Shown piece by piece: positions 45,355-49,188 of a stretch of 64,000 nt of DNA. This DNA is from Enhydrobacter aerosaccus (lineage in GTDB: Bacteria > Pseudomonadota > Alphaproteobacteria > Reyranellales > Reyranellaceae), in the NCBI GenBank assembly GCA_903832005.1, contig CAIKZO010000075.1, positions 1 to 64,000 on the forward strand, read 5' to 3'. Within the stretch, counting starts at the first letter, position 1. Each line of letters opens with the position of its first letter. The position numbers and the translations under genes are program-made. The notes below the pieces were generated by a model. It worked only from the letters and a program-made list of their open reading frames with translations. It did no database searches and was not told the origin of the DNA.

Positions 45355-45909
45355 CTATTTTAGTCCTGCGAACAGCGGGCCGGCGCCGAGCGCCGACGCG
45401 CCTTCGATCTCGAGAATGCGCCGCTTGGTGTCGACGCCGCCGGTGGCGGAGAAGCCACCCATCTTGCCGTTGGCCGCCAGCACGCGATGGCAGGGCACGA
45501 TGATGGCGACGGGATTTTTGCCCAGCGCTGCGCCAACCTCGCGGGCCTCCTGCGGTGGTGCGCCGATGCGCTTGGCGATCTCGCCATAGGTCATTGTCTG
45601 GCCGGGCGGGATGGCGCGGGCGACGTCATAGACCTTGCGGTTGAAGGCGGGCACGGCGCTGAGGTCGAGCGGGATGCCGGTGAGGTCGGTCTTGCCGTCC
45701 GACAGCAGCTTCAGCACGCGATCGATGGCCTCCTGGATGGCGGGTGTTGGCGAGACTTCGGCGGCGCCCGGCCAACGGCGCAGTGCCCGCGCGCGTGTGG
45801 CCGCCGGGGTCTTCTCGGGCAGCTGCAGGCCCACGATCCCGGTCTCGCTCCAGGTCAAGCCACAGACGCCGATCGGCGTGTCGAAAAGAGTGAAACTCAG
45901 GTCCGCCAT
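45355..45909 (-). CDS. ogt: Methylated-DNA--protein-cysteine methyltransferase
   Basis: A 184-aa suicide DNA-repair protein that takes alkyl groups from O6-alkylguanine. The active site is IIVPCHRVLAANGKMGGFSA with acceptor Cys140. The DNA-binding helix-turn-helix is near 108-128 (YGEIAKRIGAPPQEAREVGA). There is no Ada-type N-terminal regulatory domain, so it is the constitutive Ogt type. It is divergent from btaA (89 bases between starts), and the Pho-box-like sequence lies in that gap. Confidence 0.93.
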   Translation of the reverse strand: MADLSFTLFDTPIGVCGLTWSETGIVGLQLPEKTPAATRARALRRWPGAAEVSPTPAIQEAIDRVLKLLSDGKTDLTGIPLDLSAVPAFNRKVYDVARAIPPGQTMTYGEIAKRIGAPPQEAREVGAALGKNPVAIIVPCHRVLAANGKMGGFSATGGVDTKRRILEIEGASALGAGPLFAGLK

Positions 45910-45933
45910 GAGGCGCTCCCCATTCCCAAGCTG

Positions 45934-45951
45934 CTGTCGTCAAACTGACAT
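45934..45951 (+). promoter_or_regulatory. Pho-box-like PhoB operator upstream of btaA
   Basis: CTGTCGT-CAAA-CTGACAT is two 7-base repeats with a 4-base spacer, each one mismatch from the PhoB consensus CTGTCAT, in the btaA direction. A -10-like TATATG (45962-45967) lies 10 bases downstream, the spacing found at PhoB-activated promoters. An exact inverted repeat CACCCC/GGGGTG (45953-45958, 45967-45972) flanks the -10. Confidence 0.65.
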
Positions 45952-45998
45952 TCACCCCCTGTATATGGGGTGGGTTGTCTTAATTTGGAGTCTGTGGA

Positions 45999-47225
45999 TT
46001 GGTCTATCCGCGAGCCGAGAGTCATATCCGTCTCAGCAATGCGGTGCGGCGCAGTCGCACTCTGTCCCGGGAAGGTCTGCTGGAACGGCTGTTCGAGCGC
46101 ATGTTCCACGGGTTGGTCTATGCCCAGATCTGGGAAGATCCGGAAATCGACCTGGAAGCCCTGGCGCTCCAGCCCGACAGCCACGTGGTGGCGATCGCGT
46201 CGGGCGGTTGCAATGTCCTGTCCTACCTGACCGCCGGCCCCGCCCGGATCACCGCACTCGACCTCAGCCTGGCGCATGTGGCGCTCAATCGGTTGAAGCT
46301 CGCCGCCGCCCAACATCTTCCCGACTGGCAGGCGTTCCACCGGTTCTTCGGTGCGGCCGACGACAAGGCCAATATCGCGATCTTCGACCGGCTGATCGCA
46401 CCGCACCTCGATCCGGAGAGCCTGACCTACTGGAACGGTCGCAGCGCCCATCAGTTCGGCCGCCGCCGCATCTCGATCTTCGCGCGCAATGCCTATAAGC
46501 ACGGCGCGCTCGGCCGCTTCATCGGCCTCGCCCATGTCGTGGCCCGCGCCTACGGCGTGCGGCCGCGCGACCTGCTGGCCTCACGCACCATCGAAGAGCA
46601 GCGTCATTTTTTCGAGACCATGCTGTCGCCGCTGTTCGACAAGCCGGCGGTGCGCTGGGCCACGTCGAACCGCCTGTCGCTCTACGGACTCGGCATTCCG
46701 CCCGCGCAGTACGAAGCGCTGGCCGGTGGCCGCGACATGCGCGTGGTTCTGCGCGAGCGAGTCGAGCAGCTGTCCTGCGGCTTCAGCCTCAACGACAATT
46801 ACTTCGCCTGGCAGGCGTTCGGCCGTGGCTATGGCGAGAACGGTCCGCTGCCGCCCTACCTGCAGCAAAGCAACTTCGATGTGGTGCGCGCCAATGCGGG
46901 CCGGGTCGAAGCCATGAACCGCTCGATCACCGAATATCTGGAGACGTGCCCGGCGGAGTCTCGAGACCGCTACGTGCTGCTCGATGCGCAGGATTGGATG
47001 ACGGACGCCCAGCTCAATGCGCTGTGGAGTGAGATCACGCGTACCGCGCGGCCGGGCGCCCGGGTGATCTTTCGTACCGCCGCGGAGCCTTCGCTGCTGC
47101 CGGGCCGCGTCGAGCCCGCGATCCTGGATCGCTGGCGCTACGATGCCCCGGCCTCGCTTGCCTTCACCAAGGCCGACCGCTCCGCGATCTACGGCGGCTT
47201 CCATCTTTATGTCCTGGGTGCGTAG
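45999..47225 (+). CDS. btaA: S-adenosylmethionine:diacylglycerol 3-amino-3-carboxypropyl transferase (BtaA, DUF3419)
   Basis: A 408-aa BtaA/DUF3419 protein. It moves the aminocarboxypropyl group of SAM to diacylglycerol, making diacylglyceryl-homoserine, at the inner membrane. Typical parts are GLVYAQIWEDPEIDLEALAL near 38-57, IASGGCNVLSYLTAGPARIT near 65-84 (SAM site) with ALDLSLAHVALNRLKL, and YVLLDAQDWMTDAQLNALWS near 325. The start is a TTG at 45999, 8 bases after GGAG. An in-frame stop lies just upstream, and no ATG precedes the conserved sequence. btaB follows after 3 bases. Confidence 0.92.
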   Translation: MVYPRAESHIRLSNAVRRSRTLSREGLLERLFERMFHGLVYAQIWEDPEIDLEALALQPDSHVVAIASGGCNVLSYLTAGPARITALDLSLAHVALNRLKLAAAQHLPDWQAFHRFFGAADDKANIAIFDRLIAPHLDPESLTYWNGRSAHQFGRRRISIFARNAYKHGALGRFIGLAHVVARAYGVRPRDLLASRTIEEQRHFFETMLSPLFDKPAVRWATSNRLSLYGLGIPPAQYEALAGGRDMRVVLRERVEQLSCGFSLNDNYFAWQAFGRGYGENGPLPPYLQQSNFDVVRANAGRVEAMNRSITEYLETCPAESRDRYVLLDAQDWMTDAQLNALWSEITRTARPGARVIFRTAAEPSLLPGRVEPAILDRWRYDAPASLAFTKADRSAIYGGFHLYVLGA

Positions 47226-47228
47226 ACC

Positions 47229-47900
47229 ATGAGCGACGCCGTCATGTCCGCCGACCTGATGGATCGTATCTACCGCCGTCAGCGGCACATCTACGATCTC
47301 ACGCGCAAATACTACCTGCTGGGCCGCGACCGTCTGATCGCGCGCCTGCATCCGACACGCGGCATGCGCGTGCTGGAGATCGGCAGCGGCACGGCGCGCA
47401 ATCTGGTGCAGACCGCGCGTGCCTATCCCGACATCGATCTGTTCGGCATCGACATCTCGCACGAGATGCTCGAGACCGCGCGCCAGGTGGTCGTCCGCGA
47501 GCGGCTGACAGCGCATATCCAACTCGCCCAGGCCGACGCCACGCGGTTCGATCCGGCGCTGCTGTTCGGCGTGCCGGGCTTCTCGCGTATCTTCATCTCC
47601 TACAGCCGGTCGATGATCCCGGGCTGGAAGGCCGTACTCGAGCAGGCGACCGCCTGCCTGCTGCCGGACGGCGAGCTGCACATCGTCGATTTCGGCAGGC
47701 AAGAGCGGCTGCCGGGCTGGTTCAAGGCAGCCCTGCGCCGGTGGCTCAGCTTGTTCCATGTCCATCCGCGCGACGATCTGGAGGCCGAACTGGCCGCTTT
47801 GGCCGCGGGGCACGGCTTCTCCTACACGATCGAACGTCCTTTCGGCGGATATGCCCAACACGCGGTCCTGAGCATGGCTCCTCTGCCCTTGCGACACTGA
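47229..47900 (+). CDS. btaB: Diacylglyceryl-homoserine N-methyltransferase (BtaB)
   Basis: A 223-aa class I SAM methyltransferase. It starts with RIYRRQRHIYDLTRKYYLLG, the BtaB-type N-terminus, then motif I MRVLEIGSGTARNLVQTARA (near 47-66), DLFGIDISHEMLETAR and IFISYSRSMIPGWKAVLEQA. BtaB methylates diacylglyceryl-homoserine three times to give the betaine lipid DGTS, which replaces phospholipids when phosphate is scarce. The 3-base gap to btaA and the matching functions leave little doubt about the pairing. Confidence 0.9.
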   Translation: MSDAVMSADLMDRIYRRQRHIYDLTRKYYLLGRDRLIARLHPTRGMRVLEIGSGTARNLVQTARAYPDIDLFGIDISHEMLETARQVVVRERLTAHIQLAQADATRFDPALLFGVPGFSRIFISYSRSMIPGWKAVLEQATACLLPDGELHIVDFGRQERLPGWFKAALRRWLSLFHVHPRDDLEAELAALAAGHGFSYTIERPFGGYAQHAVLSMAPLPLRH

Positions 47901-47985
47901 GCTGGGACGTTGAGCTGGGGGCATTGGCAAGGCACCTGAGACGGTGCTAACCGGGCGGGGAACGAAAGTATGGGAGTTCCCCGAG

Positions 47986-49188
<1,203 letters not shown>

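Follow-up and report, generated by a model that had tools for sequence, protein, structure and literature searches.

Predicted PhoB control of the betaine lipid operon btaAB in Reyranella, and an eroded Pho box in one clade

The btaAB locus

The analyzed window is a stretch of 64,000 nt within contig C75 of a 6.05-Mb draft genome, and it contains the adjacent genes btaA and btaB (Table 1). BtaA is encoded by a single copy in the draft genome and matches the PF11899 (DUF3419) profile from position 3 to position 383 of 385 (363.8 bits). A sequence relative among solved structures was not found. BtaB is a class I SAM methyltransferase, as judged by the Methyltransf_25 family (44.9 bits), several related families, and the motif I VLEIGSGTA; thus, both proteins are recognizable, as stated in the preliminary description of this DNA. 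A btaB homolog adjoins btaA in all btaA loci examined, with 47-90% identity among those listed. The best matches of BtaA are from Reyranella isolates, metagenome-assembled genomes (MAGs) and their relatives, including a MAG labelled Enhydrobacter aerosaccus (89% identity) and R. massiliensis (79%), which assigns the genome to Reyranella or a very near lineage. Among the relatives, btaA starts with TTG in 36 and with GTG in 7 of 43 cases.

The divergently transcribed ogt gene adjoins btaA in 44 loci and lies outside the lipid pathway. The gene order ogt / btaA-btaB / acetyl-CoA acetyltransferase (45355-49188 in the window) is kept in many Reyranella loci.

Table 1. Coordinates of the described features (window positions unless a contig C or locus L is given)
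Feature	Coordinates	Strand	Remarks
ogt, methylated-DNA--cysteine methyltransferase	45355..45909	-	divergent neighbor; TIGR00589
Candidate Pho box	45934..45951	+	CTGTCGTCAAACTGACAT
Pho half-site 1	45934..45940	+	CTGTCGT; most relatives [CT][CT]GTCAT
4-base spacer	45941..45944	+	CAAA; AAA in 41/41, C in 37/41 distinct Reyranella upstreams
Pho half-site 2, promoter-proximal, degenerate	45945..45951	+	CTGACAT; genus consensus CTGGCAC
-10-like element	45962..45967	+	TATATG; exactly 10 bases 3' of the box
Ribosome-binding site	45987..45990	+	GGAG; before the start in 42/43 relatives
btaA, SAM:diacylglycerol 3-amino-3-carboxypropyltransferase	45999..47225	+	408 aa; TTG start; PF11899
btaB, diacylglycerylhomoserine N-methyltransferase	47229..47900	+	223 aa; 3 bases past btaA
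Probable plcP, LpxH-like phosphoesterase	C75:66318-67136 (L195:3316-4137)	-	PF00149/PF12850
Probable agt, GT4 glycosyltransferase	L195:2259-3308	-	7 bases 3' of plcP
Gene divergent from plcP	L195:4246-5169		resembles a diacylglycerol-kinase-type lipid kinase
phoB	C158:15505-16179		near pstS
pstS	C158:19754-20677
Three tandem Pho half-sites	C61:21365-21393 (L116:1501-1529)		upstream of a membrane-protein gene
OlsB-like (ornithine lipid) acyltransferase	C96:50201-50524 (L194)

A candidate Pho box upstream of btaA

A Pho box consists of two 7-base direct repeats similar to CTGTCAT that are separated by a 4-base A/T-rich spacer (PMC3131613). The site upstream of btaA, CTGTCGT-CAAA-CTGACAT, deviates from CTGTCAT-N4-CTGTCAT by one base per half, and is the sole match in the window at three or fewer mismatches, with 0.01 expected from shuffles. 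Two direct repeats, a 4-base spacer, and about 10 bases to a -10 element in the direction of the gene are all found at btaA, confirming both the 7-4-7 repeat and the spaced TATATG of the preliminary description. Assignment of the box to the divergent ogt gene was rejected, as the -10 spacing runs in the btaA direction.

In the whole genome (6.05 Mb), 17 sites were found within two mismatches of the pattern, compared to 10 sites for the reversed control pattern, and therefore the motif alone lacks genome-wide significance. We scored the site, as the preliminary description had proposed, with a PhoB matrix, an 18-base one derived from 29 distinct triple half-sites that precede pstS in 30 genomes of the genus. 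The btaA sequences were excluded, which makes the matrix independent of btaA; its seeds, however, were picked for their similarity to the E. coli consensus, and in this respect it presupposes a Pho box. With this matrix, the btaA box reaches a score of 12.6, the second highest among 127,966 window positions. Three other high-scoring positions, 18523(-) and 55279(-) inside coding regions and 49947(-) inside a nicotinamidase-like gene, were taken as chance matches. About 0.0007 sites with the score of the btaA box are expected per 110-base upstream region on one strand, as extrapolated to genome-wide matrix scores from loci, and this makes a chance occurrence at this position unlikely.

Conservation of the box in Reyranella and beyond

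The preliminary description had staked its operator on conservation of the half-sites among relatives, and the site survived this comparison. Of 42 distinct btaA upstream regions from Reyranella, 39 have their best matrix match where the window has its box, 65 to 68 bases before the start, with scores from 11.4 to 20.0 (median 14.2), against a 99% quantile of 4.4 for random windows of 110 bases. Three regions deviate, namely that of L025 (6.6, at -85) and those of the two relatives nearest to the window (3.3). The information content of most box columns is 1.2 to 2 bits, compared to 0.0-0.4 bits in the upstream flank, and positions G3 and A17 of the box are near-invariant. The dinucleotide TA follows the box at +10 in 31 of 41 relatives and at +11 or +12 in the remainder. 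The G at position 6 of half-site 1 is unique to the window among 41 distinct Reyranella upstream regions, the other 40 having A. Outside the genus, a similar box precedes btaA in Vineibacter and Pseudorhodoplanes (CTGTCATCAAACCAACAT), and Roseibium btaA is preceded by CGTCACCAAACTGTCGT, which has the same core and an intact-looking second half-site (CTGTCGT).

Thus, the btaA site appears unremarkable by sequence and becomes credible through its place and conservation. One alternative is an accidental match, with btaAB not regulated by phosphate. The quality of the site, near the genome-wide background when taken alone, would agree with such an accident, but conservation of position and sequence in the genus and beyond, together with the low expectation per promoter, makes it extremely improbable.

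A conserved element resembling CTAACCGGTCATCCCGTCAAGT was observed from a few to about 45 bases 5' of the btaA box in L004, L009-L013, L016, L020, L021, L024, and other loci. Read as the reverse complement, this element includes TTGACG and may be the promoter from which the divergent ogt gene is transcribed. The element is absent from the lineage of the window, where the ogt-btaA gap is shorter.

Erosion of the box in the clade of the window

The two closest relatives (L002 and L083, from separate assemblies, BtaA identity 89%) have ACATCAT-CAAA-CTGAAAC (ACATCATCAAACTGAAAC) at the position of the box. No site scoring above 3.3 was found in up to 900 bases 5' of btaA in these sisters (about 140 bases for one of them), yet their pstS and plcP boxes are as elsewhere in the genus. 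The window and the two sisters form a clade with support 100/99, and the next branch, L003, has an intact box. Between the window and a sister, 12 of 18 box positions are identical, a value close to that of third codon positions (65%), while the region from -47 to the start retains 39 of 47 identical bases.

The simplest reading of these sequences is a relaxed constraint on the btaA box in the clade of the window, which lowers, without removing, our confidence that the window species uses PhoB at btaA. All the above observations favor a decaying box, with PhoB control weaker in the window species and absent from its sisters, and with btaAB either constitutively transcribed from TATATG or otherwise controlled. 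However, the window box still scores far above the null, each of its halves is one base from the consensus, and its spacing is intact; hence, we regard this alternative as distinctly unlikely. A related and still rather doubtful suggestion, to which we give slightly more weight, is that this small clade is uncoupling betaine lipid synthesis from PhoB, which would keep control of the remaining Pho regulon, plcP-agt among it. DGTS in the clade would then be either constitutive or responsive to another signal. Erosion of the box within a single clade is the one new element of this analysis, and the two sister genomes that have lost the btaA box provide a natural test of the rewiring of lipid remodelling.

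Comparison with the pstS promoters

The site upstream of pstS (CTGTCATCGAACTGTCAC) scores 26.2. Across the genus, pstS promoters contain four half-sites at 11-base steps, the last of which is degenerate (GGGAGAC, CAGTGAC) and is followed, after 10 bases, by TA in 28 of 30 cases. The btaA promoters of the genus contain two half-sites, again with a degenerate last one (CTGGCAC). This common layout is the strongest reason to regard the imperfect second half-site of btaA as a real promoter-proximal PhoB site. At the same time, the genus-wide degeneration means that the "textbook" label, which the preliminary description attached to the spacing, is more apt there than it would be for the sequence.

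Among btaA promoters the spacer (C)AAA hardly varies, which is not the case at pstS; this suggests that an additional contact is made at the -35 position, perhaps by the sigma factor. An alternative is that the block TCATCAAACTG serves another regulator or the sigma factor and that its likeness to a Pho box is secondary: the spacer, with its invariant AAA, is kept as well as the half-sites, the core survives in the sisters that have lost the half-sites, and the block sits where a -35 contact is expected. On the other hand, half-site letters beyond the core (G3 and A17) are conserved as well, the block is detected by a matrix trained on pstS promoters, whose spacers differ, and Roseibium combines the same core with an intact-looking second half-site. 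We therefore consider this alternative very improbable and retain PhoB.

PhoB and other candidate members of the Pho regulon

The product of the phoB gene scores 354.3 bits against TIGR02154 and is the only match above the cut-off. Its recognition-helix segment, YVEARTVDVHIRRLR, is nearly identical to that of E. coli PhoB, YVEDRTVDVHIRRLR; the genome thus encodes a genuine PhoB that carries the recognition helix of the E. coli protein. The gene behind the three tandem half-sites in contig C61 looks, as judged by eye, like one of the Na/Pi-cotransporter type. For the OlsB-like acyltransferase gene, a strong Pho box was not found nearby, the best site in the 3.3-kb locus scoring 11.1 at about 800 bases from the gene.

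A phosphoesterase gene is located 2.3 kb beyond the right end of the window and 20 kb from btaAB. Its product is distinct from LpxH, scoring 39.5 of 190 bits with the LpxH model, and it is preceded by a Pho box, ATGTCATTGAATTGTCAC, that scores 22.8 and is kept in most of the genus. The order of a phosphoesterase gene followed by a GT4 gene, as described in PMC9239053 and PMC4796936, suggests a plcP-agt operon, and on profiles, gene order, and neighborhood we assign the pair as a probable plcP-agt. Two loci of Pseudorhodoplanes and one of Xanthobacteraceae (L033 and L034 among them) have homologs of both genes directly adjoining btaAB, and in 23 genomes of the genus btaA and plcP share one contig at a distance of about 12-23 kb. 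The lipid kinase-like gene (Table 1) lies on the other side of plcP.

Both btaA and plcP are present in 32 of 37 genomes, and both are missing or fragmentary in the other five (G004, G006, G008, G012, and G015). Three of these five are included in a PstS tree and do not group together, which suggests repeated joint loss, as far as a one-gene tree and a set with some incomplete genomes can indicate.

Proposed pathway

Taken together, these data make it very probable that btaAB is a two-gene operon for DGTS, a phosphorus-free betaine lipid, under the control of PhoB. PhoB binds its half-sites as a head-to-tail dimer that substitutes for a -35 element and recruits RNA polymerase. At low phosphate, phosphorylated PhoB would thus occupy both half-sites upstream of btaA and direct the polymerase to TATATG, and the transcript would begin near 45974. 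BtaA transfers the 3-amino-3-carboxypropyl group from SAM to diacylglycerol, and the product is methylated three times by BtaB; in the window organism, these reactions would yield DGTS. The diacylglycerol would probably come from phospholipids cut by the PlcP-type phospholipase of the Pho-boxed plcP-agt pair.

From the genomic evidence, we infer PhoB binding, induction, and DGTS production in the window organism. The proposal of the preliminary description that this organism replaces its lipids through PhoB is supported at the sequence level by the conserved box, the distance of 10-12 bases to TA, the presence of PhoB, and the Pho-boxed plcP-agt, within the limit set by the two eroded sisters. 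Since this bacterium has btaAB behind a control site that is common, at the same position, to nearly all of its relatives, a lipid swap at phosphate exhaustion is probable in it. The resulting list of Pho-boxed genes includes pstS, plcP-agt, the probable phosphate cotransporter gene, and btaAB.

Comparison with known systems

A full-text search of one literature collection returned no paper naming both Reyranella and betaine lipids. In Sinorhizobium meliloti, btaA and btaB are strongly induced by phosphate stress (PMC8829014), and PMC3972451, where it cites Geiger et al. 1999, gives PhoB as the activator of the DGTS synthesis genes. The Reyranella system is similar to that of S. meliloti in the gene pair, the inferred enzyme reactions, and the phosphate control, here predicted from sequence; it differs in the promoter-proximal half-site, which is degenerate genus-wide.

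Methylosinus trichosporium OB3b has the same arrangement of plcP immediately upstream of agt (PMC9239053), whereas its reported products are glycolipids, DGTS being unmentioned in that paper.

Lipid remodelling by plcP and btaAB has been described in marine bacteria, and in Phaeobacter sp. MED193 plcP is required for DGTS at low phosphate (PMC4796936). The plcP-btaA-btaB locus of this marine roseobacter resembles the Reyranella genes in combining PlcP with BtaAB and in its putative Pho boxes; in contrast, plcP-agt of Reyranella lies 12-23 kb from btaAB, and the two have separate Pho boxes. Thus, PhoB-controlled lipid replacement, already known in other alphaproteobacteria, is extended to Reyranella as a further, well-supported predicted example.
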